Source: a virus. From it: 34,414 nt of DNA. The DNA lies in IMG/VR virus record IMGVR_UViG_3300009128_000074, positions 1 to 34,414 of that record. One strand, 5' to 3'. Every line of letters starts with the position of its first letter. Position 1 is the first letter of the stretch. A program made the position numbers and the translations under genes. The notes beneath the pieces are model-generated. The model was not told the DNA's origin, did no database searches, and saw nothing but the letters and a program-made list of their open reading frames with translations. Of this stretch, positions 14,420 through 34,414 are shown one piece after another.

Positions 14420-14441
14420 GTTAGAGGTCTCCCATTGACAA

Positions 14442-14456
14442 GGGTCCGCACATCTT
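14442..14456 (+). repeat. short imperfect repeat flanking the HNH island (left copy)
   Basis: GGGTCCGCACATCTT here resembles GGGTGTCCACATCTC at 15358-15372, at the far side of the HNH pair. Only CACATCT is an exact 7-mer. It could mark the edges of the inserted DNA or be chance, because CACAT also codes part of the conserved CPH of the HNH protein. Confidence 0.25.
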
Positions 14457-14486
14457 GTACCCATAAATACAGCAGAGGGCGATTAC

Positions 14487-14759
14487 GTGCATACTTGGCA
14501 TCGACTGCGCGACGAAATCCTTGAGGCGTACGGAGCGCAATGTGCCTGCTGCGGGGAGACCCACAAAATCTTCCTCACCATTGACCATGTGTTTGGGGGA
14601 GGGCGCAAGCACGTCAGGAAGACGGGCTCCCGGCTTAAGACCTACCAGGAAATTATCAAGCAGGGATTTCCCCCGGACTTCCAGGTTCTTTGCTGGAACT
14701 GCAATTGGGCAAAGTCTAATGGCGGATGTCCGCATACCATCCTCGACATGTCGGGTTGA
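14487..14759 (+). CDS. minimal HNH endonuclease, 90 aa
   Basis: This is a plus-strand gene inside a minus-strand structural operon. It has a GTG start at 14487 with GAGGG about 8 nt upstream. The protein is almost only an HNH core: CACC (Cys19/Cys22), IDHV with His34, then FPPDFQVLC and WNCNWAK with Cys69/Cys72, ending GGCPH. The two CxxC pairs and the DHV are the expected zinc-ribbon HNH arrangement in phage homing endonucleases. By eye about 40 of 70 residues match the core of the next gene, so they are paralogues. Its last 41 nt overlap the second HNH gene in another frame. A 60-base sample is 50% GC, below the structural genes. It probably acts as a nickase or homing nuclease, or is a remnant of a larger enzyme. 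Confidence 0.8.
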   Translation: MHTWHRLRDEILEAYGAQCACCGETHKIFLTIDHVFGGGRKHVRKTGSRLKTYQEIIKQGFPPDFQVLCWNCNWAKSNGGCPHTILDMSG

Positions 14760-17450: not shown

Positions 17451-20363
17451 CTACAGCACGTCGGGTTCTGGGTCGGGCGGCACCGGGGTCGAAGCTGGGA
17501 ACCCTTCGATGCCAATAACCGGGGGAGTCTGGCCTTCTTCCGACAAGTAGCCAGTGGCCTCCCCGTCGGACACTCCCATAAGCGTCTTGATGATGGCCAG
17601 GACCAGGGGTGGCCCCACTGGGATGACCACAGCAATCCCGGCCCCGAAGGCGAGCGGGGAGTCGGGTGGCTTGTTCTTGGCCGTCGTCAGGTCGGAGACC
17701 ACCCCTCCAGTGCCGTTCGACAGAAGCATGAGGGCGCTGCACTTCGGAATCTGGAAGGTATAGCCAAGTAGGGACTGGATGAGGGCATTGATGCGGCGGA
17801 TGAGCTGCTGAATCCCGATGATGCGGGCTTCGACGAACTCGATGTACTTCTTGATGGCGTCCACAGCCGATTGGGCTGTCTTCGCAATCGCCTCCAGCCA
17901 GTTGACGAATTGCGTCAGCACATCTTCGAGCGCCGGGTACTGGTCGAGAAGACGGATGGCAATCCACTCCCCATCGTCGGGGGACCTGTTGAGGGCAGCC
18001 CCGGCCACGCTCAGCGCCAGGGCGGCCTCCTGTAGGAGCTGCCCGTCCCTGTACCCTGTTAGGAGCCCTCGGCAGTAGTAAACTCTCCCCGACACGGAGG
18101 AAGCAGTTGTGTTCTGGCGCACGTCCTCCAGGCTGCTCCGGTTGACGTAGAAGACCGGGGAGAGGTCCGCCGACCCGACTATCTGCCGTTTGGCCACGAT
18201 GTCTTCGAGAGCCCCTCGCTCCTCCTCAGGCACCACGATGGACCCGTCCTTCTGAATGCTCGTCTCGTAGAACATCCGTAACGATGGGGGCAGGTCGCGC
18301 AGGAAGGCCGTGGCTTCATCTGCGCCCACCGTCATCCTGGCAGTGAAGTCGGAGTCTTCGCCGCCCACCACCCCCTCCTGCATTTGGGGCAGGCGGTCGG
18401 TAACAAGGCCATCCGCGAAGAACATCTTGTCCACAACTTCCTCGTCCACGCCCATGCAATAGGGGTTCAGTGCTACACCAGAGTTGAGGAAGCCTCCTGC
18501 CTGCTCGTCATCGGTGTCCAGGGACTGAAGGATGGTAGCCTCCTGGAGCTTCTGAGAAAGAAGCTCTGTCTTATCGGGATGCTGCGCCCCGAAGATGTCC
18601 TTCCACTTCACCTCCCGAAGATGCTTGGTAGCAGCCACCACCGAAGCTTCGGCGTCGGGCAACGGCCCTGTCTTCGAGTAGAGGTCATGCGCAACTGCCC
18701 GGATGCGGCTCCGCACATGGTCCCGCATCTTGGTCGGGGACTCCCCTACCGCGCGTAGTGCCGCTGCGTAGTCCTCGTAGATGAACCCCACAAGATGCTT
18801 GAGCCCTTCCAGCCCACTTCGCTTCAGGGCGAGCCCAGGCACGATGAGTTGGTTGCTCTTAATGGAGGCAACCTGCTCCTTGGAGAGAACACCCTCCAGA
18901 GTGTCCACCGGGGTCAAGTCCGGGCGCGTCAGCACGAGGAGAGCGAGGGCCGCCTCAACGGACTGAAGGTACTTCTGCGTGTTCACGGTTGGGAAGACAG
19001 CCTGGCGGGGCTCCGAGAAGGGACTGACATCGCTGAAGGCCGCGTCCGGGCTCTCGGTTGTCACTCGGGGCTCTACCGAGGAGTCGTCCTTCAAAGGGAG
19101 CAGCTTCGAGAAGTCATAGCGGAAGGGGTTCGTGCCGTCCGCGATGCTCCGAGTGGTCGAGGCTATCCGGACGAACACAGTGGAGGCAGGCCCGGCGTCC
19201 TCGATGGTCACCTCTCCCTTGCTGTCCTTGCTGACCGAAGCGTAGCGGGGCATCTCCTCAGACTGGAGCAGGTAGGTCAGGCCCTCATCTATCCACCGCT
19301 CGACAGCCGGAACCTCCACGTTGAAGGAGCGCTGGAAGTAGTAGACGGTGTCACCGCCGACGGTGCCCTTCAAGTCTTCGAGCGGAATCGGGTCTCCCGC
19401 AGGGGTCTGCCCGTAGACCCGCATCTTGTTGTCTTCGAGCGTTCCGTCGTCCTTGATGGGGGCGTTGTACTCTAGGTCGGAGGGCAGGATGAAAGACTCT
19501 GCCCCACCATAGAGCACAATCTGCCGCCCCGCCTCATCCAGGACTTTGCCGGACTCCCTGGGCTGCTGGCCGTCTACTTTGCCCAAGCCCGTGCGGGGCC
19601 GATCATAGACGAGGGGGATGCCGTCTCTGAATGTCGAGACAGTGATGATGTAGCCGCCAGGTGGTAGCGGCGGGAAGGGGTCAAAGGGGCTGTTCTTGGT
19701 GGGCACTGTGGCGACCCACTTCACCTGCGCCACGTTCGGCGGCGACCCGTCCCCTTTGTTGAAGAAGGCTCCCAGGTCCGACAACTGGAAGACACTGGCG
19801 GCGTTATTCCCGTACCTGACCTCTGTAATGGCCGGAACGGGAGGTCCCGAAATGGTGTAGTCCTGCTGGAAGTAGGCGACCAGCTTCCGCATGAATGCGA
19901 TGAGCTTCTCAATCTGCGAGATGTCCACCGACAGGTAGAAGAAGAAGCTCAGAATGGCCGTCTGGCTCGACAAGTCCGGGCGTGTGGGGTCCGTGTGGTC
20001 GGTCAGGCGCGCCAGCATCCGGCGCTCGTACTCGGGGAATCCGCCTCGCAAATCCTGGTAGGGCCACTCCAGAAGCGGCCAGTCCCCCGTAATGTAGAGG
20101 CCCATCTGGCGGAGGTCCCGCAGGATGGCCTTGAACTCGTCCAGGATGGCCTGGACCAAGGCCAGAATGGGGTCGAGGTAGCCAATGAGGAACGCCTTGG
20201 CGATGTTCAGCATGGCCAGGGCAATGTCCAAGAAGGAGGTCAGGAACTCCGCTATCTCGTTGATGGTCTCGCGGGCATCTTCCAGGAAGTCGGGAACGCC
20301 AAGAGTGAGGGTGCCCCATTGCCCTGTCGCGGTGTCCACCATCTCTGTCACGGTGTTCGCCAT
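17451..20363 (-). CDS. large tail/baseplate structural protein, 970 aa
   Basis: Unrecognised. Residues 1-75 are strongly helical and hydrophobic (NEIAEFLTSFLDIALAMLNI, then FLIGYLDPILALVQAILDEF). They are followed by GDWPLLEWPYQDLRGGF, which looks conserved. A long mixed region follows (residues 150-780). Another hydrophobic helical region is near residues 815-880 (LTQFVNWLEAIAKTAQSAVD, then IGIQQLIRRINALIQSLLG), and a further hydrophobic stretch (VVIPVGPPLVLAIIKTLMGV) is close to the C-terminus. Such paired amphipathic helices fit bundles in a tail tip or membrane-facing part, but nothing shows enzymatic function. It starts within TGATG (20365-20361), overlapping the 79-aa gene's stop. Confidence 0.7.
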   Translation of the reverse strand: MANTVTEMVDTATGQWGTLTLGVPDFLEDARETINEIAEFLTSFLDIALAMLNIAKAFLIGYLDPILALVQAILDEFKAILRDLRQMGLYITGDWPLLEWPYQDLRGGFPEYERRMLARLTDHTDPTRPDLSSQTAILSFFFYLSVDISQIEKLIAFMRKLVAYFQQDYTISGPPVPAITEVRYGNNAASVFQLSDLGAFFNKGDGSPPNVAQVKWVATVPTKNSPFDPFPPLPPGGYIITVSTFRDGIPLVYDRPRTGLGKVDGQQPRESGKVLDEAGRQIVLYGGAESFILPSDLEYNAPIKDDGTLEDNKMRVYGQTPAGDPIPLEDLKGTVGGDTVYYFQRSFNVEVPAVERWIDEGLTYLLQSEEMPRYASVSKDSKGEVTIEDAGPASTVFVRIASTTRSIADGTNPFRYDFSKLLPLKDDSSVEPRVTTESPDAAFSDVSPFSEPRQAVFPTVNTQKYLQSVEAALALLVLTRPDLTPVDTLEGVLSKEQVASIKSNQLIVPGLALKRSGLEGLKHLVGFIYEDYAAALRAVGESPTKMRDHVRSRIRAVAHDLYSKTGPLPDAEASVVAATKHLREVKWKDIFGAQHPDKTELLSQKLQEATILQSLDTDDEQAGGFLNSGVALNPYCMGVDEEVVDKMFFADGLVTDRLPQMQEGVVGGEDSDFTARMTVGADEATAFLRDLPPSLRMFYETSIQKDGSIVVPEEERGALEDIVAKRQIVGSADLSPVFYVNRSSLEDVRQNTTASSVSGRVYYCRGLLTGYRDGQLLQEAALALSVAGAALNRSPDDGEWIAIRLLDQYPALEDVLTQFVNWLEAIAKTAQSAVDAIKKYIEFVEARIIGIQQLIRRINALIQSLLGYTFQIPKCSALMLLSNGTGGVVSDLTTAKNKPPDSPLAFGAGIAVVIPVGPPLVLAIIKTLMGVSDGEATGYLSEEGQTPPVIGIEGFPASTPVPPDPEPDVL

Positions 20364-20602
20364 CAGCTTCCCCCTCCATACTGGAGCCGCGCCAGTTGCT
20401 CCTTCAGCGCTGCCAGGGATTTCTGGTCCTGCTCGACCAAGCCCCCCAGAAGTTCCCGGAGCCGCTCAAGCTTCTGGCGCTGTCGGAGAACTAGCTCGGG
20501 GGTGACCCTGCAAGAATCCCGCTCCTGCCACTCCCCACTTTCGACACCCAGCTCGTTCAGGAGCGTCTGAAGCTCTTCCGGTGTCTGTTCGGCCCTAGTC
20601 AC
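20363..20602 (-). CDS. small helical protein, 79 aa
   Basis: Unknown small protein: charged, Leu/Gln/Glu-rich and predicted to be helical. A heptad-like run lies at about residues 38-72 (LRQRQKLERLRELLGGLVEQ, then LKEQLARLQ), ending in GGGS. The GTG start at 20602 overlaps the giant gene's end by 8 nt, and AGGAG stands about 7 nt upstream inside the giant gene. Its own stop is fused to the 970-aa start as TGATG. Being locked between two large structural genes suggests an accessory structural or chaperone role; that is inference. Confidence 0.75.
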   Translation of the reverse strand: MTRAEQTPEELQTLLNELGVESGEWQERDSCRVTPELVLRQRQKLERLRELLGGLVEQDQKSLAALKEQLARLQYGGGS

Positions 20603-23600
20603 TTACAGCTCCTGTTGTCTCCTCAAGCAGCAGAAGACGCTCCCTCTCTGCGAGTCTCTCGGGCAGCTCGTCGTCGTACCGTCTGATGGCCGCCAAAGTA
20701 CCCAGAATCTTGTGGACCCTGTAGGCGAGCCAGACGTACCGGATAGAGCGGAAGCGGTCTGACTCATCCAAGACAAGGTCCACACGCTCGGGGAGCACCG
20801 GGCGCACATCGCTGCCTCCGCTCACGTCGTCCGTGAAGGCGGTGTAGGGGGTGTCCCCGGGGCCGGAGAGCCTCATAGACACGTCGCTGGCCGTGGTCAG
20901 GCGGTCGAGCCGCAGGTCGAAAATCCAGAAGCGGCGGTCGAGCAGAGACAGGCAACCCCGGTTATTCAAGAAGGGTACCGTCCCCAGCTCTCCGATGATT
21001 TCCTCGATGTACCTGTTGGTCAGGACGCCCTTGCCGGATTCGGGGTCGGTCGTGAGGCCAAGGTCGGAGATGTGCTCGTCCCGCTGGAAGACGAAGTAGG
21101 AGCCGTACTTCCAGCCGTACAGAAGCCCCCGGAGCATCTCGATGAGCGACAGCATCCGCTCTCGCATGAAGAGCACGAGGTCGATGGCCTCCCCCGAGAA
21201 GAGTGCGGAGGGGCGGATGACCCGGTAGCTAAAGGGCCGGATGGAGTAGTCATTGCCCCCGTAACTCTCCGTCACGGGGTCGCGCTTCTCCGTGGGCCTC
21301 AAGTCCATCTGGCCCTCGAAGTCTCCGGTCAGCCCTGAGTCAGAAATCGTCGGGTAGACGGCGTACTCCCGGTTCGGCGAGGTGCCTTCTGCGAACGTCA
21401 CCCAATCGGTATTGGTGGGACCTCCCGCGAAGGTCGAGATGGGGTCCACCACCAGAGAGACGGGCGAGCCGGGGACGACCTGCGCGACGCGGTAGAAGCC
21501 TCGGTTGTCGTCGCGCTCGCCTGGCTTGCCCTCAAACACCGTTGGGGTGCCCCGACTCGTGACGCCGAGGTCCCCGAAGGGGCGCTGGCCCCGGTCGGGA
21601 ATCACGGGGAGGCCGCCCCACTGCGGGAGCGTCCCGGCGGGGTCGATAACTACGATGTCCCCGACCCGCACGCCCTTGGAGATGAAGCTGTCGCCGGTTT
21701 GGGCCAGCTCGTCATCGTACATCGTGTTGAAGGTGCTCGTCTCGACGTAGCCGCCGCGCTCATTCTCCCAGTCGGCGTCGGTGCGGTAGACCTCGCGGTC
21801 GCTGATAAGGTCGAGGAGCTGCTCGTTGGACTGCTCCAAGGGCACAGGCACCTGCCGGAGCCAAATCTCGAAGCGCATCCCGTCGTCGGCAATGAGCTGA
21901 GCCGCCGTCCGCCGGGTGATGCCGGGCATAGCCAGCTTGATGGTGCCCGGCCCCTCGACCCCCAGAATCTCGCACTCCTCGATGAGCGTCCCGTCGTCGT
22001 CCAGAAGCCGAAAGCGGTCCCCGGCGTTGATGTCCACGTCGGGGTCATCGAAGGGGCCGAGATTTGTCCCCGTGTACGTCTCGCCGTCGTTCCACACATC
22101 AGGGGCCAGAGGGCTGGCCGGGTGCGGGTGGTCAGTGTTCCAGTCCATCGTGAAGCCAGTGGCCTGGAGAACCCCCCGCTGCCGGACGTTCGTCGAGTAG
22201 CCGGTGATGCGCCCCCTGCGGATTTCGTAGGCGTAGCGGAGGGCCTTGAAGGCGTCGCCAGCGTCGTCCATGACCGAGTGCCAGCGCCGGACGCGCCGGA
22301 CGTGGAACTTCACCTGCTCGGGGAGCGTGATAGCGGTCGCAGTGTACTCCGACGTGTCCCGCATCCAGCTCTCGCGTTGCAGGTCATTACCTGCGGTGAG
22401 CGGGTCCGTGATGGTGTGGCTGGCATCCACTACACGAGGGTGTGCGCCAATCAGGTTGAGGGCGGAGCGTGGAAACGAAGGCTCCAAGAAGATGCCTGCC
22501 TGCGCCCAGTAGCCGGGCGTCGTGCCTGCCAGGTCCTCCAAAGCCAGCACGGTAGATGGCAAGAGGCACTGCGGGGGCACCGCGCTCGGGGCCGGTGCTG
22601 CCGCGTTGACGTTCAGGGCATCCCAGACAGACGAGGGCACATCCCCGATGTCCAGGGTGTCCACGACATTGTGGTAAACGGGCGTGGCCACATCCGGCAG
22701 GAAGGCATGGCTCCCCGCCACACTCGGGCGGTTGTAGAAGGTAAGCTGGCCAGGGCTGGCGGGGTCTGCCCCGGTCCCGATTTCCCGGTCGGGAGGCGGG
22801 GGGGCAAGCCCGGTCACGGAGCCGTCAAACTGCTGGTCAGTCCCCCCAACGACCACCGGAGACCGGAATGTCGCGTAGCGCACCCCGCGCGGGGACACCC
22901 ACGAACCGAAGTCCTCGTAGCCGATGCAGTTGTTGCTGGGGAGCCCGTACTCCGAGCCCCCCATCTGGACGGGCAGCCGGGTCATTCCGGCAACCTGAAG
23001 AGCGCGCCCGGCGATGAGGCTGTTGAAGGCAGACGCGGTGAGAGGGTTCCCGATAGAGTCCTGGTAGGACGAAAGGGTGAACTCCTCTGGGGTGGCCGTC
23101 GCCGCGAAGATGGCGCTGACGGCCCCATACTTGTAGTCGTCGTCCTGGTCCGAGCCCAGCGCCCCCAAGTCGAGGATGACGTACATGCGGCGAGAGCCGT
23201 CAGGGTCGAAGCCTGGCCCTTCTTCCGTCGTCGGGGCGGAGTCGAGGGTGATGGTGTCGGTGTTGGGGTCGAAGTCGGCGACGCGGGGGAACTCCACCGG
23301 GCACCAGCCGTTGCCCGCTCCCGCGATGGCCGTGGGGTTGGTTTCTCTGTAGTGGTCGCCCACGTTGGGTTCGACAGCATGGCGGACGAGATACGTCCCG
23401 ACGTAGGGGGACGCCGGGTTGGCCACGTCGGCAGAGCGCTCGATGACGAGTACGTCCCCGGCCACGACCCGTTCCAAAGACGTGGTGGCCGCGACGACGG
23501 ACACCCGGTTGTCCTGAATCCGGCGGGTGTTCACGCCGAGCCCGGTGTTGAAGTAGCTGCCCACGAAACCCGTGCCGGAGCAGATGGCGGCGGTCGAGCC

Positions 23601-26600
23601 CTCCATGTAGTCGTTCGAGGGCATCGCCGAGAAGGTCACACCCGTCCCGATGATGGGCGTGTTGCCGTGCCCCTCGAAACCCATAACCTTGATGCTGCCC
23701 GGTGGGGTGTAGTCCCCGACCACCCCGGCGCGAGCCAGGAAGGTGAAGGGCGTCGGGTCAACGACGAGCCCGTTGGAGTAGCGGTTGACCGCACTCCAGT
23801 AGAAGCCACCGCCGGGGTCTGGAACTGTCACCTCATCTATGACGAGTTTCGCGTCCAGCACTAACTGCGGGTGCGGGGCTGGGTCGATGGGGTGGGTGAA
23901 GCCCCGCTCCTTCGCCAACCGGAGGTCGATGTCCTCGTAGAAGGTCAGCCGGTCCTCGTCTATCCACGCGGTCGTGGACTCGCCATCCGGGGTCGGGAGT
24001 GTCGTGTCATAGGTGATGACATCGAACGAGAACTCTTGCCCGTATAGGGTCTTGAACACCTGCGGGCCTGCAACCCCATACTCATACGGCATGAACCACT
24101 GGTTACGCAGTGGAGGAGCCAGCGGCGTCGAGGGACCGAGGTCGCTCCACGGGAACCATCCGACAGCGGGGATGATGACCTGCATCCCAATGGCCCACCC
24201 TGGGTAGGCATAGGTCTGCCCGAACTGCACAGGAGCCCCGAGAGGCACAGGCGGGAGCAGGAGGTTGCCGGACTCGTCGGCGGCCCACACGTCACCGTCG
24301 TAGAAGTGGATGATGAGCGCGATGAGGCCGCCCGTCTCGTTCGGCCAGGGCATGTTCGGGTCGTAGGGGGCCGGGGGCCAGAGTCCCACATCGAGGTCGA
24401 GCCGGGCGATGACCTTGATGCTGATGTGGTTCTTGGCCGAGGCCGCGAAGATGTCGTTGAGGTTCCCGACGCCGGGGGCCCCGTTGTTGAGAGCGAACGT
24501 GCCCACCGAGGTGAAGTCGAGGACGGTCAGGCCCGCTACCACGTCCTCCAGAATCTCAATGCCCGCCGGGGGTGCCGGTTGGGCCTGCGGGTCGGGCGGG
24601 TAGACCCCCGAGGGGTCCAGCCACACCATCGCGTCCTCGAAGGTGTAGCGGATGGGGGAGCCCGCTGCCGTGTGGGTTACGAAGCGAGGGGGCTCGATAG
24701 TCGAGGAGGAGCCCGGGTAGTTGTCCGTAACCGCCCCGACCGTGTGGATGCCCAGTGGACCGTCGTTGCCGAAAGGGCTCGGGCTGTCGGGCTGGATGAG
24801 CACTACGTCGAAGGGGCGCACGAGCCGCTCGCCCACGCCAGAAGGTGCCAGGTCTTTGTCGGTCAACAGGGCAGCAGGGGCATCCACCGCCGGGGGTGCC
24901 GTGACCACCTCCCCGTCGTTGTCGAGAATCTCATCCGGGTAGACGGCTTGGGAAGCGAAGCCGTCTACTGTGGTCATGACTAGCGGGAAGCTGAAGGTAA
25001 TCTCGTCGAAGCGGTCCAGCTCCGTGTCGCCCGCACGCATGTAGGGAATCTGGTAGTCGCCTGAGTCGTCGGTCGTGAAGCCATCCAGGGCTGGGACGCG
25101 CAGTGGGTTCTGCTCTGCGTAGACGAACTCCACCGGGCCTTCGAGTGCCGAGAGTGGGTCTGGCGGCTTCTGCCCCTGAAGCTCCTTCAAGCCAAAGAAG
25201 TAGGGGTCGCCGAAGGACGGCATCGTACGGTCGATGATGCGCCCGTCCGTCTGGATGGAGAGGTCAACCCCTGGCCGGTAGAGGTCGAGTCCCCCGGCCA
25301 TACCCTCGAAGTCCTCGAATTCCGGCGGGTCGTTGAACGCGGTGGAACGTGAGCCCGTGGGGGCTCCGGCGTACACGGTGTCCCCCTGCTCAGCCGCAAA
25401 CTCGTGCAGCGGAATGCCGGTGCTCGGGGTCAGGCCGACCAACACCTGTCCGGCGTTCGAGATGTCGTTCCCGTCGGCGTCGGCTAGGGTGAGCACGCAG
25501 CCGTACAGCACCTCCTTAACGAAGACGCCCGTATAGGTCGCTCTGCCGAATACGTCGATGCCGCCGTCCCGGTAGAACAGCTCATAGGTTGTCCCATCTG
25601 GACGACCCCACCGGAGCTGCTGGCCCTCCTCGAAGCCCGGCACTGCCAACTCAAAATCCCCGCTCAGGGCATCCGGAACCTCGCCGCCCTGGGAGAGAAG
25701 CTGTTGGTTGTCCGGATAGCCTGTCTCGGGGTTGACTGGCACGTCTCGGAGCAACGCCGGGAATGCAATGACCACGGGGCGCGCAAGGGCTGCGCTGGGA
25801 GGCACTGCCACCGTGAAAGCCCCCGCCGGGAGCCCTGCGGGGAGGTAAGCCCACACCCGACCCCGCGCTCTCCGGCGTCCAAGCTCTGCCGTGCTGACAG
25901 CCGTGAGGTCCCCGAGGACCGGGTTGAAGAGCTGGCCGATGGTCTCCCCGTTGGTGCTCTGCCTCTTCCCGTCGATGACGCGCCCATACGTGTAGACGCC
26001 GGGCTCGTTCTCTTCGAGGTCTGCCTCAACACCCGGATAGGTCATAAGGAAGGCACGGGTCAGCGTCGGGTAGAGCCGGGAGAAGCGATGCTGGTCGGCC
26101 ATCCGGGCATAGAGCCCCTTGGCTTGGTAGGCATAGTAGGGCGCTGTCGAGGACCGGGTGATGCTGCGCTCTCCGAGCTGGATGAACACCCGGTCGTCCA
26201 CGTCGTTCTGGACCAGTGCCCGCTGCTGCGAGGCCATCTCCCGCATCTTGTCCGGGTCAGGCAGGTAACCTGTCACGGCCCCACCACTGATGGCGAGGGA
26301 GGAGGGGGACACAATCCAGTCGGTTTCGAGGAAGGTCAAGTCCAAGTCCGGGCGCTCACTGCCGTAGACCTCGGACCAGGCCCGGCGTGGGCTGAGTAGC
26401 CCGGAGATGGCGTCTTCGTAGCCCGGGGTCGGCCAGTCCTTGTCGTGGCCGACGAAGAATCGGAACTTGCCGTCCCGGTCCCCGATGAAGCCGCCGGACA
26501 CCGTTTCGAGCACCTGCTCGAAGGCCTCTACCGACTGGTTGTAGAAGTCGAGGAAGGTCCGGGCTGCGCGGTCTTTGTCCTCCAGATGGCCGCGCTCCCC

Positions 26601-29600
26601 GAGCAGGCCCGTACGACCCTGTTCCCAGTTCTCGCTACCCCCTCCGCCAGGCTGTGGGGCTCCCGAGGCTGGTTGCTTCGAGGTAATTTCCTCAACCGCC
26701 TCCTGCGCGGCCTCGGCCAGGAACGAAGGCAGGCGCACCGACCGGAAGTAGAAGCTGTCCGGGATGCGGAAGGTGTACGTGCCAGTCAGCGTCGCGCCGA
26801 GTACCCCGTTACTCGCGCTCGGCGTGTCACCATAGAGGAAGTCCGCCGTGTAGCGCGGGGCGATGACCTCCCCATCCTCGACGAAAGGCTGAAGGGTCCT
26901 GATGCGGGTGAAGAAGAAGTAAAGCTGCTGCCCCGGCCCGAGCGCGTCCTGTAGCGGCGAGACGAGCTGGAAGTTCCCGGTGTCGGGGTCGATGCTGTAC
27001 TCGATTCCCTCGGACAGAGTACGGCCCGGCATTTCATTGCCGCTGGCGTCGGTTTCCCCGTAGAGGACTAGCTCATAGGCTTCGTCTGTCAGGACGGCCC
27101 CCGCTCCCAGGAAGTCCCGCGTCTGGGGCGGGTAGACGGGCCGGTATGAGAGCTTCACAGTGGGGGCCGCACTGACCGAATAGCCCGTCCGGAACGGGGC
27201 GGTGACGGAAATCTTGGTGTGCCTACCGTCCGGGTCCAGCTCGACTTCGGAGATGGTGAAGGGGGAGCCGTCCAGCTCAAAGATATGGCCGGGCTGCGCG
27301 AAAGCAGTCAGGTCCCCTTGGAAGACGATGGTTTTCTGCCCCCGGCTGACTGGCTCGAAGGGGAAATCCGCCGTGTTGATGGCCGACATGAAGCCCAGCG
27401 GGGCGTTCGTCGGAGTGGGGCTGCCCCCGGAAGGAGTCACCTCTGTTGCCACGGGCTCTGAGGTGACGACCGTGATGACATCGTTCCCCGGTGCTCGCGT
27501 CCCGACCTCAGTTGTGGTCGAGGGGTAGATGCCGATTGCTGTGATGCCCTCGGTCTGAGGCCCCTGAGGCGGATAGTAGGTGAGCTTCGTGACGTAGAAG
27601 CAGTCGCCCCCGATGCGGAACATCTGACCCAGCTCAAACTCCGCCACCCGGTTGCCCCAAACCCCGAACTGGTGCTGCTCCTCCTTGATGAAGAAGGGCG
27701 GACGGTAGACCGGCTTGCGGCTAGTCTCGTAGGCCTTCTCGCCACCCTGAGCCTCGAAGACGGCATAAGAGACCGTCACGGGCAAGCTGGACTCGATGGT
27801 CTTGCTGATGAAGGTGAGACGGCCTTTTCCGTTCAGCTCCGGCGGGTAGTCCACGAGGTAATCCGTGGTGCCGAAGTTCTGCATCATCGGGCCGATGTAG
27901 GCCGTGGGCGCAACCCTCTGGTCGATAGTCGTGCTCTCTGACCCGAAGGTCAGTGTAGTTCGGTTCACCCAAACCGCTGCCTCGTCCCGAACAAAGACGG
28001 GAAGGAACTCGATGCGCTGGCCACCTGTCTTGCGGCCCTCGTAGTCCGCCTCCCAATACTCAATCTCAACCGCAGACCCTTCAGGCACGGGCGTCTTGAA
28101 GGCGACCGCTCCAAGCAAGGGGCTCACGCCCACGTCTGTCTGCTCCTCCGTGACCATCTGCTCGACGAAGTAAGCTGCCGTGCCCGCGAAAGCGGCCATG
28201 TCCGCCGAGGAGAAGTTGAGGTCACCGGTCGCCGGACGGTACTCGACAGTGAGGCTGGAAAGGCCGGCAGAAGGCTGGAACTCCTCTACATAGAGGACGT
28301 TTGCCGCCGCGAATTCTGACAGGAGGTTCGAGCCGAACTTCAGCCTCCCGGCAGGGTCGTCCCCGGAAGCTGCCGTCAGGTACTCGATGCCATCCCCGCT
28401 GCCGGGGTCGGGGCTGAATGAAGCGACCCCAGTGAGCCCACCCCCCTGGGGATAGGTCGTGGCCCCGACCTTGACGGAGAAGGACCCCGAGCTGAAACGC
28501 GCTGTCCCTGCGGGCACGTCGAGGGCATCGTTGGCGATGGCCCCCAGAGCGGTCTGGGTAAGGGCAACAAGAGCTGCCGTATTTGTGGCCGCCGCCTGCA
28601 CAAGTCCGTAGCGGATGCTGATGATGCGCCCGCTGGCAAGGGCTGCTTCCATGTTTGCCCGCAGAGGCGTCGCGGGCGTGCTTGTGGGGACCTCCCCGAC
28701 CGAAGAAAGCTGCCGGACCTTGAAGGGCTCTTCTTGGAGGTGATTGAAGCTCTTGTACGTGATGTCGGCGATGACCGATTGGTCATACACGTCACGAGAG
28801 TAGCCCTCGAAGACCTCCCACACGACCGGGCTGGACGCGGAAGACCGGAAGGGCGGTGTCACAGCCAGCTCTGTAGGGCTGGTGACCGCCGTGACCCGAT
28901 AAGAGCCGAGAGCCTCTCCTGAGCCTACCTTGAGTCGGTAGCCCGGCAACACCGAACTGAAATCTGCGTCTGCGTCCGTGAATGCCGTGCCGCTGGCCTG
29001 GTAGGTCCCCCGTGCCCCGTACGTCACCCGCGAACCGAGCCGGGCTACGAGGAGGATGTTCCCCGAAGCGCCGTCCTGAGGCATCACGTAGTCCGTTTCC
29101 TGGCTCTGGAGGACCGTCGAGCCGCCCCCTTCCGCCACGTAAAGACCGCCCCCAATGCCTGGAGCCCCAAGCATGGACTCCGGTGGCACTGCGGTTCTTC
29201 CCAGCACCAGCGTCGCGGTGGTGTTCTCTAGCGCCTCCTCGACCGTGTCGCGGGCCACCCAGTCGAAACGGCGCTGCCCGAAGCGGTGGATGATGTCGCG
29301 ATAGTGCTGGAGGGGCTTGTTGACAATCTGCACCGACTGCCCATCGTCCAGCACGGTCTGGAGGCCGAAAAAGACCCCATCGCCATAGCCCGCGATGTCC
29401 TGAAGCGGGGGGTAGTCGAGGAAGTGGTACGGCGTCCCGGCAACCGACTTAGTGAGAAGGGCATCTTCGAGCCGCTCTGTGGCCCGTACATCTGGAGTGG
29501 CCGCCGCCCGGTTGAGGTTGACGGGGCTGCGGAAAAGCCCAAGGGCAGCACCAGAGTCGGGCAGCCAGTTCGTCACCCCACCGACAGCACGCCAACCAGG

Positions 29601-31901
29601 CAAGAAGCCCAGGACCGCCGCCCCGGTGAGGTCCTTGACAGGCTCCAGGCTGATGGGGTCGAGCTTGCCCCAGCCGATTTCAACACTCCCGGTCGCAGGA
29701 GTACCTGCCTCCAACACGACTCGTCCGTTCTGGGCGTAGGCGCTTCCGGTGCCAGTAATGGCGGCATCGAGGCTGGCGGCCACCTGCTCTGGCGTATAGA
29801 AGCTCAGCGCCGTGGGGGCGGCCCACTCGTAAGCGGTCCCGTCGATGGCGAAATAGAGGGTCTGCCCCTCCTCGAAGCGGAAGATGTCGCGATTCCGGCT
29901 GACGAGTCGGGCCTCCTCCGTGTGCGTCGCCGGAGTGAGGGTCATCTGGATGAAGTAGATGGCCTCGTCGTCTCCGGCCCAGTCCCGGAGGTCGTCGCGA
30001 CTCAGCATCACTCGGGAGCCGTAAGTGCCTCGCTCCCTCGCGATGTAGGCCTCCCCCTTCTGGACCTTGTAGGGCTTGGAAGGGAGGTCGTCTTCTCGGT
30101 CCACCTCTTGGACGGTAGAGACGGCACCCTTCTTCGAGAAGAGCGTCATGTCCCCCACACCGTCGTCAACCCGGCGAAGGCGTCCGGGGTTCTGACTCAC
30201 GGCGTCGTCACCTCCGGGGCGCACGGAGGCGTCCAGGAGCGGGTATTTGGGGGTGGCCCCGGTGCCATCAGGAGCGTCCAAGACGCCGGACTTCCCCAGC
30301 CCCCTGAAGGCATCCGAGAGAGCGAACTCCTCCGGGAGCACGACCTCATCCGGGATGTAGAAGGCCGAGGAGGCGGTCGTTGCGGGCACCCCATTTTCGT
30401 CGAGGAGTGGCACGGCCTCCTTGGTGGGTTGGGGCGTCTGGTTGAGCGCCAACCCGTCGTACACCACGTCCTCGCCCAGAAAGTGCTTGTCGAAAAAGGG
30501 CGAGGTGGGGTCTGCCTTGGCGAGGTCCGCCGAGCTAAACAGCAGGCGTCCCGTCGAAAGAGACACGAGAACCTCACCCTCGGCGGGAGCCGCTGAGGAC
30601 AAAAGGGCGCTGTCGGTGGCGACCAGGGTAGGCTGGAGGTAACGCCGGTTGCCGAATCTGAGGAGCGGACGGTCAGCGGGGCCGGGGATGGGTGCAAGGT
30701 AGAGCGGCTGCACGTCGGCGCTCCGGAGCTGGCCGACTATCCCGTCTGCCGTCTCGGAGAAGCTCTTGTAGACGAACCAGATGGTCTTGCCCGCGTGCAG
30801 CTCGACGAAGCTGGGGTTGAACTCCAGCATCCCGTTGGACTGCCCCATAACCGCCTTGGAGGTCGGGTCCAGGGTGAAGTCGTAGCCGTCCTCGACCTCC
30901 CTGTCTGGGCGGACCCTAACGTGAGTCACAGGCTCGCTCTCCACCGCTCCCGGGCTCGTCCCGACCCGGAGCATCGCATAGGCGTCCCGCGTCGAGGTGC
31001 CAGGCAAGTAGGCGTTGACAGGCAGATTCGTGACCTTGGGGTCCAGCCGGTATGACTCGTCCGGCAAAAGGCGGCCCACCTCGACCACGCCGGAACCTTT
31101 GTAGGGGGCCCAGCGTTGCAGGGTGCCGTCCCACCCAAAGCGCGTCTCGTAGCGGTCGTTCCTCGTCCACCAGAATCTCGCCGGAGCAAGCGTGTAGCGG
31201 ACCTCCTGGATGCGGTCGCCCCGGTCTTCCGAGAGTCCGCCCCCTAGGGCTGTCAGCACTTGGTCCCCGGAGCCTTGCGGGGTAAAGCCCGTGCGGGTCA
31301 GCCGAACAATCCCGGCATCCGGGTCCTGGTCCGTGCTGGTTGGGAGCAATACCATGTAGGGCTTGGTGCCCGCCCTGCCCGAAGCGAGATTGTCCTCGTC
31401 CACCCAGCCGTCATCGTCGTAGTCGTCCACGTCCCCGCGTGAGATGACGACAGCAACGATGGAGCCGATAGAGCGCGCGCTGTCGTCCTGGACGATGAGA
31501 CTGTCCGACCCATCGAAGAAATAGCCATAGCCCGCCGGAACGGGCTCGCCAGGCACGATAGGCGCGGGCGAAGCGTCGGTGACTACCAGCTCCCCTAGTG
31601 GGATGGAGCCCGTACCTTCTTCGGTCCACCAGTCCGGGTCGTCTGCCACAGCGAGCTGGGCGGTGTTCGCGGCCCAGACGAGGTACTCGACCGGAGCTGT
31701 GCCCGGCGCTTCGAGGATAGCAGCCCTGTACTGGTCCGCCCGTGCGTCCACGAACTCAGGCGACTGCGCCGACAGGTCATAAACTGGCGGCACCACGCGG
31801 GCATCCCGGATGACTCCCGTGACCGGCTCACCGGTCGTCTTGGCGTTCGTGGGGGCGACCCTTGGCGGTCGCAGGACCCGTCCGTCAAAGCTGAAGCCCA
31901 T
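20595..31901 (-). CDS. giant multidomain virion protein, 3768 aa
   Basis: One uninterrupted frame of 11.3 kb, a third of the window. No catalytic motif is evident. It is mostly beta-sheet rich, with an EF-hand-like calcium loop at residues 160-171 (DYDDDGWVDEDN). Short 'G.L.FSSADL/M' elements lie near residues 457 and 1230, and beta modules with the 'G..LKV..G..LGSYRV..V' pattern near 980-1020. A Gly/Pro linker lies near 1750 (APQPGGGGSENW), followed by a helical motif 1780-1820 (FYNQSVEAFEQVLETV, then GDRDGKFRFF). A helical region at about 3570-3610 and a charged helix end the protein (ERLAERERLLLLEE). Positions are converted from DNA. The start ATG overlaps the previous stop as TGATG (31903-31899). 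Its place between spike and wedge genes suggests a baseplate or tail-tip scaffold; that is inference. Confidence 0.8.
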   Translation of the reverse strand: MGFSFDGRVLRPPRVAPTNAKTTGEPVTGVIRDARVVPPVYDLSAQSPEFVDARADQYRAAILEAPGTAPVEYLVWAANTAQLAVADDPDWWTEEGTGSIPLGELVVTDASPAPIVPGEPVPAGYGYFFDGSDSLIVQDDSARSIGSIVAVVISRGDVDDYDDDGWVDEDNLASGRAGTKPYMVLLPTSTDQDPDAGIVRLTRTGFTPQGSGDQVLTALGGGLSEDRGDRIQEVRYTLAPARFWWTRNDRYETRFGWDGTLQRWAPYKGSGVVEVGRLLPDESYRLDPKVTNLPVNAYLPGTSTRDAYAMLRVGTSPGAVESEPVTHVRVRPDREVEDGYDFTLDPTSKAVMGQSNGMLEFNPSFVELHAGKTIWFVYKSFSETADGIVGQLRSADVQPLYLAPIPGPADRPLLRFGNRRYLQPTLVATDSALLSSAAPAEGEVLVSLSTGRLLFSSADLAKADPTSPFFDKHFLGEDVVYDGLALNQTPQPTKEAVPLLDENGVPATTASSAFYIPDEVVLPEEFALSDAFRGLGKSGVLDAPDGTGATPKYPLLDASVRPGGDDAVSQNPGRLRRVDDGVGDMTLFSKKGAVSTVQEVDREDDLPSKPYKVQKGEAYIARERGTYGSRVMLSRDDLRDWAGDDEAIYFIQMTLTPATHTEEARLVSRNRDIFRFEEGQTLYFAIDGTAYEWAAPTALSFYTPEQVAASLDAAITGTGSAYAQNGRVVLEAGTPATGSVEIGWGKLDPISLEPVKDLTGAAVLGFLPGWRAVGGVTNWLPDSGAALGLFRSPVNLNRAAATPDVRATERLEDALLTKSVAGTPYHFLDYPPLQDIAGYGDGVFFGLQTVLDDGQSVQIVNKPLQHYRDIIHRFGQRRFDWVARDTVEEALENTTATLVLGRTAVPPESMLGAPGIGGGLYVAEGGGSTVLQSQETDYVMPQDGASGNILLVARLGSRVTYGARGTYQASGTAFTDADADFSSVLPGYRLKVGSGEALGSYRVTAVTSPTELAVTPPFRSSASSPVVWEVFEGYSRDVYDQSVIADITYKSFNHLQEEPFKVRQLSSVGEVPTSTPATPLRANMEAALASGRIISIRYGLVQAAATNTAALVALTQTALGAIANDALDVPAGTARFSSGSFSVKVGATTYPQGGGLTGVASFSPDPGSGDGIEYLTAASGDDPAGRLKFGSNLLSEFAAANVLYVEEFQPSAGLSSLTVEYRPATGDLNFSSADMAAFAGTAAYFVEQMVTEEQTDVGVSPLLGAVAFKTPVPEGSAVEIEYWEADYEGRKTGGQRIEFLPVFVRDEAAVWVNRTTLTFGSESTTIDQRVAPTAYIGPMMQNFGTTDYLVDYPPELNGKGRLTFISKTIESSLPVTVSYAVFEAQGGEKAYETSRKPVYRPPFFIKEEQHQFGVWGNRVAEFELGQMFRIGGDCFYVTKLTYYPPQGPQTEGITAIGIYPSTTTEVGTRAPGNDVITVVTSEPVATEVTPSGGSPTPTNAPLGFMSAINTADFPFEPVSRGQKTIVFQGDLTAFAQPGHIFELDGSPFTISEVELDPDGRHTKISVTAPFRTGYSVSAAPTVKLSYRPVYPPQTRDFLGAGAVLTDEAYELVLYGETDASGNEMPGRTLSEGIEYSIDPDTGNFQLVSPLQDALGPGQQLYFFFTRIRTLQPFVEDGEVIAPRYTADFLYGDTPSASNGVLGATLTGTYTFRIPDSFYFRSVRLPSFLAEAAQEAVEEITSKQPASGAPQPGGGGSENWEQGRTGLLGERGHLEDKDRAARTFLDFYNQSVEAFEQVLETVSGGFIGDRDGKFRFFVGHDKDWPTPGYEDAISGLLSPRRAWSEVYGSERPDLDLTFLETDWIVSPSSLAISGGAVTGYLPDPDKMREMASQQRALVQNDVDDRVFIQLGERSITRSSTAPYYAYQAKGLYARMADQHRFSRLYPTLTRAFLMTYPGVEADLEENEPGVYTYGRVIDGKRQSTNGETIGQLFNPVLGDLTAVSTAELGRRRARGRVWAYLPAGLPAGAFTVAVPPSAALARPVVIAFPALLRDVPVNPETGYPDNQQLLSQGGEVPDALSGDFELAVPGFEEGQQLRWGRPDGTTYELFYRDGGIDVFGRATYTGVFVKEVLYGCVLTLADADGNDISNAGQVLVGLTPSTGIPLHEFAAEQGDTVYAGAPTGSRSTAFNDPPEFEDFEGMAGGLDLYRPGVDLSIQTDGRIIDRTMPSFGDPYFFGLKELQGQKPPDPLSALEGPVEFVYAEQNPLRVPALDGFTTDDSGDYQIPYMRAGDTELDRFDEITFSFPLVMTTVDGFASQAVYPDEILDNDGEVVTAPPAVDAPAALLTDKDLAPSGVGERLVRPFDVVLIQPDSPSPFGNDGPLGIHTVGAVTDNYPGSSSTIEPPRFVTHTAAGSPIRYTFEDAMVWLDPSGVYPPDPQAQPAPPAGIEILEDVVAGLTVLDFTSVGTFALNNGAPGVGNLNDIFAASAKNHISIKVIARLDLDVGLWPPAPYDPNMPWPNETGGLIALIIHFYDGDVWAADESGNLLLPPVPLGAPVQFGQTYAYPGWAIGMQVIIPAVGWFPWSDLGPSTPLAPPLRNQWFMPYEYGVAGPQVFKTLYGQEFSFDVITYDTTLPTPDGESTTAWIDEDRLTFYEDIDLRLAKERGFTHPIDPAPHPQLVLDAKLVIDEVTVPDPGGGFYWSAVNRYSNGLVVDPTPFTFLARAGVVGDYTPPGSIKVMGFEGHGNTPIIGTGVTFSAMPSNDYMEGSTAAICSGTGFVGSYFNTGLGVNTRRIQDNRVSVVAATTSLERVVAGDVLVIERSADVANPASPYVGTYLVRHAVEPNVGDHYRETNPTAIAGAGNGWCPVEFPRVADFDPNTDTITLDSAPTTEEGPGFDPDGSRRMYVILDLGALGSDQDDDYKYGAVSAIFAATATPEEFTLSSYQDSIGNPLTASAFNSLIAGRALQVAGMTRLPVQMGGSEYGLPSNNCIGYEDFGSWVSPRGVRYATFRSPVVVGGTDQQFDGSVTGLAPPPPDREIGTGADPASPGQLTFYNRPSVAGSHAFLPDVATPVYHNVVDTLDIGDVPSSVWDALNVNAAAPAPSAVPPQCLLPSTVLALEDLAGTTPGYWAQAGIFLEPSFPRSALNLIGAHPRVVDASHTITDPLTAGNDLQRESWMRDTSEYTATAITLPEQVKFHVRRVRRWHSVMDDAGDAFKALRYAYEIRRGRITGYSTNVRQRGVLQATGFTMDWNTDHPHPASPLAPDVWNDGETYTGTNLGPFDDPDVDINAGDRFRLLDDDGTLIEECEILGVEGPGTIKLAMPGITRRTAAQLIADDGMRFEIWLRQVPVPLEQSNEQLLDLISDREVYRTDADWENERGGYVETSTFNTMYDDELAQTGDSFISKGVRVGDIVVIDPAGTLPQWGGLPVIPDRGQRPFGDLGVTSRGTPTVFEGKPGERDDNRGFYRVAQVVPGSPVSLVVDPISTFAGGPTNTDWVTFAEGTSPNREYAVYPTISDSGLTGDFEGQMDLRPTEKRDPVTESYGGNDYSIRPFSYRVIRPSALFSGEAIDLVLFMRERMLSLIEMLRGLLYGWKYGSYFVFQRDEHISDLGLTTDPESGKGVLTNRYIEEIIGELGTVPFLNNRGCLSLLDRRFWIFDLRLDRLTTASDVSMRLSGPGDTPYTAFTDDVSGGSDVRPVLPERVDLVLDESDRFRSIRYVWLAYRVHKILGTLAAIRRYDDELPERLAERERLLLLEETTGAVSD

Positions 31902-32509
31902 CAGACCACCGTGCAGGCCGTGAATCCCGTCGCCGGGACGGGCGGAACCGTTGGGGTTCCCACGACAGCGGCCTTACCGCCGCCTGTGAGAATCATGGCA
32001 GCGATTCCGTTCGCCAATCCTGTAGCCAGTTGGGGCAAAGCTGGCCCCGCGCCCAACACAGAAGAAAGGGTGCTCATGAGCGTACTCCGTAGCGTCATTG
32101 GATCGGCCACCACAATCTTAGACCACTCCGCCCCCACCCCGACGCCCGCAGAGGCCCCAGAGTACCGCGCCGACAGGGAGAATCCAGTGGCCACTCCGAC
32201 TGCCACGGCAGTTGCGAGACTGGGGGCCAACACCCCTGCCACACCCGCCCCGATAAGACAGGACTGCACCAGCGGAGGCATGGGGGGCACAATTAGCCTG
32301 GAGGTCACAGAGGACACCATACCTACACCCGCCACTCCCGTTGCTCTCCCCGCTACAGCCAGGTTGAAGGGTTTCAGGCTGCCCCAGTCGGACACGGCTT
32401 CCGCGATGCCCAGGGCCAGCCGGTCATACTGGGGTCCCAACAATGGGTGAGCCCCTGTGACTCGTGCCACTTGTAGCGCGGCAAAGAGGGCTGGAGCGTT
32501 TAGTCCCAT
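31901..32509 (-). CDS. hydrophobic Gly/Ala/Val-rich structural protein, 202 aa
   Basis: Unrecognised. It is very rich in Ala, Gly and Val, with almost no charged runs, and ends VPPVPATGFTACTVV. Hydrophobic stretches lie at about residues 55-70, 85-125 and 155-178; some could be membrane segments. Internal features include GVGVGAEWSKIVVADPMTL (about 122-140). The start is ATG 32509, inside TGATG shared with the HNH stop. An upstream in-frame ATG at 32572 lies wholly inside the HNH gene and is less likely, since those 21 residues are an off-frame reading. It sits just after the spike gene apart from the HNH insertion, so a small baseplate-spike partner is a guess. Confidence 0.7.
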   Translation of the reverse strand: MGLNAPALFAALQVARVTGAHPLLGPQYDRLALGIAEAVSDWGSLKPFNLAVAGRATGVAGVGMVSSVTSRLIVPPMPPLVQSCLIGAGVAGVLAPSLATAVAVGVATGFSLSARYSGASAGVGVGAEWSKIVVADPMTLRSTLMSTLSSVLGAGPALPQLATGLANGIAAMILTGGGKAAVVGTPTVPPVPATGFTACTVV

Positions 32510-33306
32510 CAGGGTCCGACCCTGTGGTTGGGGGGTGCCCCCCGCGCATATTCCACAACCTTCTGGCACCATTTAAGGAAGTCCTCATGGGAAAGGTCCG
32601 ATTTCATTCGCTGGATGCCCTTGTGTACCCACTGAACATTGTCCGGAGTGTACCCCTTAGTGCTGTCGATGCGGTCCAAGGAAGCAGTTGTGGCGCTGAG
32701 AGGCTCCCCGATGGCCGGGAAGCGGAGGGGCTCCCCAGTTAAGGCACATCTCTCTCCTTGCTTGTTAAGCAGGGCCACACAGTATTTATGGGTGACGCTA
32801 ATCTTCAACCCTCTCGACCGTGCCGCCCACAAGATGCGACCCCAGTGCGACCCCGACATCCCCCCCTCGCCTTTCCAATTCCCAGGACGCTTCCCCTTTC
32901 TGTGCTTGTTTTGAGCCGCCCGTTCTTGTTGTAGACATCCACAACTTTGGGTGTGTCCGCTCCGCAGATTCTTGGTGAACACCTCCACGTAAGAACCGCA
33001 GGCACAAAGGCACTTCCAATACTGCCGCCCTTTCCGTACCGCTGCTCGCTCTAACACTACTAGCCGCCCGAATTTCTTCCCCAACATCGAACGGGCAACG
33101 GCCTCTCTCTTCCGCTCACCTTTCAAGCAACCACAACTTTTTGTATGCCCACGCGTGATTTTGGTCAGCGGTCTGTCCATCTCGGTGCCACACTCACACA
33201 CCACATGCACCCATGTCCCTTTGCGTCCTGGCGGGGCAACGGCCCCCCTCTCTATAGTCAGCTTGCCAAACTTCTGCCCTTCAAGGGATTCACCGGAAGA
33301 AGACAT
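32509..33306 (-). CDS. HNH homing endonuclease with two SCGCL modules, 265 aa
   Basis: This gene is inserted between two structural genes, in their direction. Residues 8-62 and 74-125 are two copies of a module with the pattern 'GQKFGKLTI...C.CG...TKI..GHTKSCGCL', which is well known at the N-terminus of phage HNH enzymes and probably binds zinc and DNA. The HNH part is at about 180-250: CALTG, then SLDRIDSTKGYTPDNVQWVHK and MKSDLS. Known family behaviour is homing by site-specific DNA cleavage. The start is ATG 33306, with GGAGGTG five nt upstream; ATG 33345 (AGGAGA upstream) is possible but adds residues not typical of the family. The TGA forms TGATG with the next gene. Confidence 0.87.
   Translation of the reverse strand: MSSSGESLEGQKFGKLTIERGAVAPPGRKGTWVHVVCECGTEMDRPLTKITRGHTKSCGCLKGERKREAVARSMLGKKFGRLVVLERAAVRKGRQYWKCLCACGSYVEVFTKNLRSGHTQSCGCLQQERAAQNKHRKGKRPGNWKGEGGMSGSHWGRILWAARSRGLKISVTHKYCVALLNKQGERCALTGEPLRFPAIGEPLSATTASLDRIDSTKGYTPDNVQWVHKGIQRMKSDLSHEDFLKWCQKVVEYARGAPPNHRVGP
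32510..32543 (-). repeat. two adjacent inverted repeats before the 202-aa gene start
   Basis: Two perfect inverted repeats lie at the end of the HNH gene. CAGGGTC G GACCCTG spans 32510-32524 and ends one base before the ATG; its minimal hairpin is 5 bp with a 5-nt loop, TCGGA. GGGGGG CA CCCCCC spans 32530-32543. No T-run follows, so a terminator is unlikely. They could fold in mRNA and control initiation at 32509, or reflect the insertion junction. Confidence 0.5.
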
Positions 33307-33311
33307 GCACG

Positions 33312-33318
33312 CACCTCC
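33312..33318 (-). promoter_or_regulatory. strong ribosome binding site of HNH gene
   Basis: GGAGGTG on the minus strand, 5 nt from ATG 33306. It fixes the likely start of the HNH gene. In the same 76-nt gap (33307-33382), GCCCTATAT lies at 33334-33342, a relative of the motif in other gaps. Confidence 0.6.
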
Positions 33319-33376
33319 TATGCTGTGGACCGAATATAGGGCCATAAGTGCGTTTCTCCTGAATCCTCTTAGTGAG

Positions 33377-33391
33377 GGCCCCTTACGGGCC
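33377..33391 (-). other. small hairpin spanning a stop codon
   Basis: Minus-strand GGCCC GTAAG GGGCC places the spike gene's TAA in the loop of a 5-bp GC stem. There is no T-tract after it, so it is not a normal terminator. GC-rich DNA gives such stems often by chance. Confidence 0.3.
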
Positions 33392-34414
33392 AATGTTAAA
33401 GGCTTTAGCCCCTATACCCCAAGTCGCAAAGGGAAGTCCTGTTAGGGGTTCTAGGCTCCCAGAGACCAAAATGGCACCCATATCAGAGCCAAAAATAGGC
33501 CCTCCCAGGTAGACACCCGCTCCACCGCGCACGGTGGCCAGGCCCGCTGTCGAAGACATCCGGACCCCTGCGAGCCCCTCCATAGAAGCAAGGCCTGTGG
33601 TGGCTTTGAGGGTCACCGTACCCACTGCCGCTGCACCAGAGATGCCGCCCGGCCCCATCTCCAATGTGCTCGTGGTCCCGCGTGCGGACCACGTTCCCAG
33701 CCACACATCGAAGGACATATTGCCCACAAGGATGGTGGTGGAATGGCTGCCTAGATTGAATCTTTCTTCACGGTCCCCGAGCGTGTAGAGGACTTTTTCT
33801 GCCACGATGCCGGGGTACGCAGGCGAGTAAGTCCTTTCGTGGAGCGGCCCAGACGTGGGTAGGAGCATTTTGGGGCCGGAGTAACTTTCCTGGGCCTTCC
33901 CCCCAACAGTCTTGAGAAAGCTGTCGGTCGTGAGAGCCATCTTCTTGACGGCATTCAGCTCCATCTCCTGCTGGGCAGTCATTTGGATGGAAGTTGCGCC
34001 GCCGTCGATAGCGTTGCCCTGGAGGAAGACCGTCTCGTTGGCCCGCACCCGTGCGTTCGTTCGAGCCACGATGTCCACAGCAGGCAACGTGCCCGTCTCA
34101 CCTGTGCTTGCCGCAACTTTGCTTTCGGCCCCCTGCGGCGGCCCACCCCCGTAGATGAGAACCGGACCCTCTCTTGACCGCAGATTGAGGCTGGCCTTGC
34201 TCAGGGTCTCGACCACAGTGTGGCCGTCCATAAGGAAGTTCAGCTCACCACCGAGCCCCAGCTTGAGCCCACCATGCAGGAACGCCTCTACAGAAGACTC
34301 ACCGGGAGGGCCGCCAATGGCGGCCTTGAGCTGCCCCTTCTTGTTGAAGGAAACAAAGCTCTCGGCTCCTCGGCCAGAGGGAGGCAGCAGCCGGAACAAC
34401 GTAGCGGCGTGCTC
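33383..34414 (-). CDS. baseplate central spike-like protein, 5' part beyond window
   Basis: The frame stays open to the right edge (bases 34414-34400 encode EHAAT), so the N-terminus is missing and the apparent TTG start at 34399 is not real. The visible ~343 residues are Gly, Ala, Ser and Thr rich. They contain short repeated beta-strand/turn units such as ATTGLASMEGLAGVRMSSTAG and ATVRGGAGVYLGG (about 264-300), plus LKLGLGGELNFLMDG. This is the texture of gp5/VgrG-type spikes with an intertwined beta-prism, which pierce the host membrane. It ends LPFATWGIGAKAFNIGP. No enzymatic residues are visible in this part; a lysozyme or hub domain could lie to the right. It is followed by the HNH gene and then the small hydrophobic protein. 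Confidence 0.7.
   Translation of the reverse strand, partial: EHAATLFRLLPPSGRGAESFVSFNKKGQLKAAIGGPPGESSVEAFLHGGLKLGLGGELNFLMDGHTVVETLSKASLNLRSREGPVLIYGGGPPQGAESKVAASTGETGTLPAVDIVARTNARVRANETVFLQGNAIDGGATSIQMTAQQEMELNAVKKMALTTDSFLKTVGGKAQESYSGPKMLLPTSGPLHERTYSPAYPGIVAEKVLYTLGDREERFNLGSHSTTILVGNMSFDVWLGTWSARGTTSTLEMGPGGISGAAAVGTVTLKATTGLASMEGLAGVRMSSTAGLATVRGGAGVYLGGPIFGSDMGAILVSGSLEPLTGLPFATWGIGAKAFNIGP

Follow-up and report, generated by a model that had tools for sequence, protein, structure and literature searches.

The window analyzed in this work, one complete IMG/VR record of 34,414 bases, encodes on its minus strand a giant protein of 3,768 residues that sequence comparisons place in a widespread family without earlier description, whose members in uncultured huge phages are conserved from end to end. 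These comparisons further make it part of a lineage-specific module of five genes between the spike and the sheath initiator genes, because the corresponding cluster of Bacillus phage G is the same without detectable versions of the genes so bracketed. We hold it to be somewhat better than an even bet that the giant is a structural scaffold of an enlarged contractile-tail baseplate, made and assembled with four neighboring proteins. The genes concerned, listed from the upstream to the downstream end of the cluster, are as follows.

33383-34414, minus strand: spike gene, truncated at the edge of the window so that its 3' part is left; corresponds to proteins of ~807 aa in 50 loci
31901-32572, minus strand: ~200-aa partner with three tandem ~60-aa repeats, next to the giant in most loci
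20595-31901, minus strand: giant 3,768-aa beta-modular protein; open frame, 57 distinct colinear relatives (its own sequence counted), dN/dS of ~0.22
20363-20602, minus strand: 79-aa charged, helix-rich partner, overlapping the giant stop, with homologues in relatives
17451-20363, minus strand: 970-aa partner that follows the giant in most loci; hydropathy shows hydrophobic helices toward each end
16551-17441, minus strand: 296-aa partner, at the same position in 49 loci
15371-16498, minus strand: sheath initiator (gp25-like) with an extra N-terminal domain; PHROG baseplate matches, phage G gp187 at 6e-25
10898-14464, minus strand: Baseplate J-like wedge protein; PF04865 at E 4e-20, phage G gp188 at 6e-47
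9534-10898, minus strand: tail protein I-like, by gene order; its profile matches phage G gp189 at 2e-17

The giant frame and its family

The frame runs from an ATG at 31901 to a stop at 20595 without an internal stop and specifies an acidic protein of 407 kDa (pI 4.5). The single frame of this length described in the first-pass annotation is borne out, as it lies far above anything obtained from shuffled window DNA (mononucleotide shuffling, n=200), in which the longest open run averaged 244 codons and reached a maximum of 386. Its GC content by codon position is 0.65/0.48/0.82, and comparison with the relative L034 (~65% identity) gives an overall dN/dS of ~0.22, with values well below 1 in each 250-residue window and a peak of dN at about residues 2500-3250. 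The coupled small genes that the annotation had seen on either side are also present: that at 20363-20602 overlaps the stop of the giant and that at 31901-32572 abuts its start, and an overlap of 1-8 nt between the giant's stop and the following gene is seen in 27 of 60 complete loci. Although this sequence is known from a single 34-kb metagenomic record, the probability of an assembly chimera or a spurious frame is practically nil: the premature stop or chimera that the annotation had kept in view is contradicted by the lack of an internal stop and by relatives of full or nearly full length from independent assemblies, with 60 complete frames in other contigs and 57 proteins distinct at 95% identity, the window's own included, among the IMG/VR matches listed. 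These proteins range from 3,007 to 4,164 aa, a few of them being cut by contig ends.

In a profile-guided scan of IMG/VR contigs, a query made from a two-sequence alignment recovered at least 75 loci encoding colinear relatives; a single-sequence query had no matches. A tblastn search of 50,697 phage records with the two halves of the giant returned one relative, the 485-kb uncultured huge phage LR745208.1, where a 3,642-aa frame matches nearly end to end at ~34% identity (40% in a global alignment). As in the window, this full-length relative is followed by the 970-aa partner; unlike in the window, the J gene is ~25 kb off, the ~200-aa gene is inverted, and the giant itself was never annotated. 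None of the isolates searched carries the giant. In one further locus (L048:10001-21144, plus strand), two overlapping frames of 2,189 and 1,589 aa take the place of the single giant frame, through either a sequencing error or a real frameshift. Relatives are also seen in bacterial or archaeal bins (L078-L080), which may be misbinned and were left out as host evidence; one of them is labeled Terriglobia, an Acidobacteriota group, and the host of the phage Tunturi_5 considered below likewise belongs to the Acidobacteriota.

Neither whole-protein nor profile searches found a Pfam, PHROG, or PDB family for the giant. A Pfam search of 13 family members gave no match, PF04865 included, the J protein being encoded by a separate gene. 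Single members show scattered matches to PHROGs of baseplate wedge, hub, and tail fiber families, and one has a weak match to a hub/lysozyme PHROG (E 0.001). Whole-length homology to a known tape measure or hydrolase, which the annotation had named among the findings that would refute it, is seen in none of Pfam, PHROG, or PDB; a tail-associated hydrolase was considered and is contradicted, with no catalytic domain recognizable by Pfam or PDB.

The baseplate cluster and the five-gene module

The usual gene order leads from a tube initiator-like protein (~420-520 aa) through the hub (~1,700 aa), the spike (~807 aa), and the ~200-aa protein to the giant, and continues with the ~80-aa charged protein, the ~970-aa and ~300-aa proteins, the sheath initiator (~390 aa), Baseplate_J (~1,165 aa), and the tail protein I-like protein. 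The order from tube initiator to tail protein I is shared by most relatives of the giant, though not all, and Baseplate_J was found in 14 of the 16 giant-carrying records tested. In the divergent loci L001, L014, L068, L069, and L077, J is distant or out of reach and the ~970-aa partner is kept; the last three also retain the ~200- and ~300-aa partners beside the giant. The J protein is named by its profile and the sheath initiator by weaker profile matches and homology to phage G (a relative in L012 matches Pfam Sheath_initiator below the cut-off), whereas the names of hub, spike (including the fragment at 33383-34414), and tube initiator come from gene order and sequence pattern, with homology to phage G that is weak for the hub and clearer for the initiator. 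By gene context, the giant is thus encoded among spike, sheath initiator, and Baseplate_J genes, and the spike fragment on one side and the baseplate wedge genes on the other agree with its earlier placement between spike and wedge. Separate fiber genes lie downstream.

The ~200-aa partner, whose true start is suggested by its relatives to be near 32509, is a candidate pseudo-threefold spike tip; because of its three tandem repeats and its usual place after the spike gene, it may sit on the trimeric spike as a cap, a part that PAAR proteins play in other contractile systems. The 970-aa partner has no PDB match and a weak match to a tape-measure PHROG (E 0.009); its hydrophobic segments lie near residues 45-63 and 907-925, and it is possibly membrane-active.

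Some further features of these loci are seen alongside the module. A zinc-ribbon/HNH-like ORF between the spike and the ~200-aa gene (32509-33393, minus strand) has no Pfam match, recurs at the same site in L009, L010, L033, L034, and L051, is missing in most relatives, and is probably a homing endonuclease. The J and sheath initiator genes, which overlap in relatives such as L012, are separated in the window by ~0.9 kb of lower GC (14465-15370) with only doubtful ORFs and no Rfam or Pfam match; an intron was sought in the window with Rfam and was not found. An ARAGORN call of a tRNA-Tyr (32436-32533, plus strand), antisense to the start of the ~200-aa gene, is probably spurious since Rfam finds no tRNA. 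Among the relatives, the hub-like protein of L012 (L012:1805-7006, plus strand; 1,733 aa) contains a weak M15 peptidase-like stretch at residues ~159-223, and a 2,181-aa frame of the L045 record (L083:12752-19297, minus strand) contains the tail protein I-like gene and is apparently a tail protein I-like/fiber-like fusion.

The contrast with phage G is what delimits the module. Like the window, phage G has genes, in gp184-gp189, for a tube initiator, hub, sheath initiator, J, and tail protein I; their order is unchanged, and these genes, which come after the tape measure, are homologous to ours at 2e-11 for the tube initiator, 1e-6 for the hub, and the values listed above for the other three. 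Counterparts of the giant and of the ~200-, ~970-, and ~300-aa proteins were not detected there (the ~80-aa gene was left out of this comparison). The simplest reading of these sequences would be that one lineage gained the five genes between spike and sheath initiator, or that other lineages lost them. A profile of the middle region of the giant gave no match anywhere in the records of phage G, Tunturi_5, and S-TIM5; as a control, it recovers relatives with only ~27% identity at E-values no higher than 1e-244, these being members of its alignment, so that the sensitivity shown holds within the family and not beyond it. Tunturi_5, an isolated Tunturiibacter jumbo phage from the Acidobacteriota with a 167-nm contractile tail (PMC11924767), resembles the giant-carrying phages in that its 309-kb genome encodes a related large sheath, a sheath initiator, and J; it differs in that the giant is not detected and unrelated large proteins lie upstream of its sheath initiator.

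The sheaths of the giant-carrying phages are themselves oversized, unlike that of phage G (579 aa). In the L045 record, the tail sheath (L082:2863-8220, minus strand) is 1,785 aa long (phrog_2839, E 1e-21); only its C-terminal ~350 residues form the sheath domain, and it carries a large insertion. Related frames of ~1,607-1,881 aa occur in 10 of 16 records, for instance at ~330433-335358 of LR745208.1. PF04984 yielded no sheath match in 10 of 10 records, a result discarded because the sheath is present in the records by other means. Two-domain sheaths measured 426-713 aa in a modeling survey (PMC9230969), and the sheaths of S-TIM5 and Tunturi_5 have 1,137 and ~1,204 aa, respectively. Upstream of the tube initiators, at the tape-measure position, the L045 record encodes a helix-rich protein of 1,175 aa, which is a probable candidate for the tape measure; no profile match confirms it.

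Motifs, modules, and predicted fold

Within the giant, the following elements were delineated, given by window position and by residue.

31392-31433, minus strand: EF-hand-like acidic loop, residues 157-170, in few relatives only
29700-29939, minus strand: module resembling the N-terminal domain of the sheath initiator (15371-16498), residues ~655-734; hhalign probability 92.8, E 4e-7 per comparison
28884-29039, minus strand: module also in tail protein I and a 2,094-aa fiber gene, residues ~955-1006; hhalign probability 96, E 4e-9
24582-28154, minus strand: modeled region with beta modules, a long helix, and a mixed domain, residues 1250-2440; AlphaFold2 pLDDT 78.8, pTM 0.50
26454-26483, minus strand: GDRDGKFRFF, residues 1807-1816; near-invariant block (G1807 in 57/57, D1810 in 55/57, G1811 in 56/57)
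21858-22058, minus strand: second copy within the giant of the module at residues ~955-1006, residues ~3282-3348; hhalign probability 90, E 1.5e-6
20598-23984, minus strand: compact C-terminal body of 1,129 residues, residues 2640-3768; AlphaFold2 pLDDT 85.8, pTM 0.80

The two motifs noticed in the first-pass annotation have fared differently. The GDRDGKFRFF element is near-invariant, as GDRDGKFRF, across the 57 proteins. The EF-hand-like loop is indeed present at residues 157-170 but is no family feature: its columns are missing in more than half of the relatives, and no conserved DxDxDG calcium loop is found across the family. It appears to be a clade feature at most and is best dropped as a clue.

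The E-values of the modules are per comparison, and ~6,500 of 7,874 planned profile-profile comparisons were run; for this reason, the match at 4e-9 (residues ~955-1006) may be regarded as secure and that at 4e-7 to the sheath initiator (residues ~655-734) as probable. A module common to the giant and the sheath (43% in the scan) gave an E of 0.04 on direct comparison and was dropped. The AlphaFold2 models cover residues 1250-2440 and 2640-3768, ~60% of the giant, and the second of these predicts a body that terminates in a long helix. Together with the module matches, these beta-rich modular models uphold the beta modules of the earlier annotation. Structure prediction and fold search, both of which it had proposed, revealed no convincing known fold: Foldseek of both models against PDB gave nothing at E<=0.001, and the remaining matches are at chance level or to single modules, with weak viral matches at TM-scores of 0.1 or less. 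Large cyanophage proteins among these were considered as relatives and rejected, in view of those scores and of the silence of the giant profile on S-TIM5. Conservation across the family extends to both termini, variation being greatest in internal stretches; the variable stretches at ~2500-2620 and ~3000-3060 could be receptor-binding parts. The giant has no strongly hydrophobic stretch (maximum 1.5).

The proposed role of the giant in the tail

The first-pass annotation took the giant for a virion protein of the baseplate cluster and thought its role beyond assignment from motifs. The former is supported by synteny, by the shared modules, and by the lack of tape-measure or hydrolase homology, which together suggest presence in the virion; the latter stands insofar as there is no family match, but the contrast with phage G allows the role to be narrowed. 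A scaffold is supported by the full-length colinear conservation, both ends included, of 57 distinct proteins, a pattern typical of a core part and not of a mosaic fiber. It is also supported by the hub-spike-giant-sheath initiator-J order, the flanks of which phage G possesses without a detectable giant, by the modules common to the giant and the wedge-side and sheath-initiator proteins, by the separate tape-measure candidate, by the overlap of the giant with the next gene, and by the scattered single-member PHROG matches to wedge, hub, and tail fiber families. Against it stand the lack of a fold match for the giant in PDB/Foldseek, its absence from the isolates searched, and the variable stretches that could bind a receptor.

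As such a scaffold, the long, acidic, beta-modular giant would be assembled with its ~200-, ~80-, ~970-, and ~300-aa neighbors, several copies most likely forming an enlarged outer layer of the baseplate. Strung together, the beta modules would reach from the neighborhood of the hub and spike as far as the wedge, namely, the sheath initiator, J, and tail protein I, and docking would fall to the rigid C-terminal body. The giant would keep the baseplate intact until contraction and bear the fibers encoded downstream. We infer its virion presence, copy number, position, bridging, and fiber-carrying roles from the evidence above; that the layer is probably peripheral is a guess, against which the gene order places the giant beside the spike as much as beside the wedge.

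The main rivals to the scaffold are a fiber and an extension of the central hub. A giant tail fiber or adhesin, whose beta modules would form a long fiber with one end binding the host surface, is unlikely but deserves to be taken seriously, given those modules, one of them common to the 2,094-aa fiber gene, the insertion-rich stretches, and a match of one family member to a tail fiber PHROG at 8e-5. However, fibers usually combine a conserved attachment end with a variable distal end, whereas both ends of the giant are conserved, strong purifying selection acts on its compact C-terminal body, and fibers have genes of their own downstream. Rather improbable is the reading in which the giant extends the central hub or tip and would form, with the ~200-aa and ~970-aa proteins, a distal complex crossing the envelope. 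The module does come after the spike gene, the three repeats of the ~200-aa protein could match a trimeric spike, and the 970-aa protein has its hydrophobic segments and tape-measure PHROG match; yet the strongest shared modules are on the wedge side, with tail protein I and the sheath initiator, and the giant lacks a strongly hydrophobic stretch. Since the virion location of the giant and its relatives is read from sequence, a nonstructural or injected protein encoded in the tail operon has also to be weighed, but the conserved overlap with baseplate genes, the shared structural modules, and the failure to find an enzyme family make this very improbable. That the giant is itself the tape measure, for which its length speaks, is hardly credible, as tape measures are long, mainly helical, and encoded at the tape-measure position, whereas the giant is beta-rich in the models and already contradicted by its predicted fold, has no tape-measure homology, and leaves that position to the 1,175-aa candidate.

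Huge-phage proteins of such dimensions have precedents: Al-Shayeb et al. 2020 reported predicted proteins of up to 7,694 aa, some tentatively structural (PMC7162821). Giant structural proteins of huge phages are therefore already mentioned, in that account of them without family, gene context, or role; what is added here is the family, its distribution, the module, and the contrast with phage G. Some very large "structural" proteins of huge phages have thus become a defined and testable family with a known gene position, and the giant can be viewed as a modular addition to a recognizable baseplate operon, comparable gene by gene with that of phage G. It is possible, though we would put it at somewhat less than even, that these phages form a lineage with a baseplate layer unknown from isolates, in which the five-gene module and sheaths of two- to threefold length make up a reinforced contractile machine of several megadaltons, with a protein of 3,000-4,200 aa at the core of an otherwise phage G-like baseplate. 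If this layer exists, contractile injection machines would be enlargeable by the addition of whole modules, alongside an oversized sheath, and the question would arise of which host envelopes require such a baseplate.
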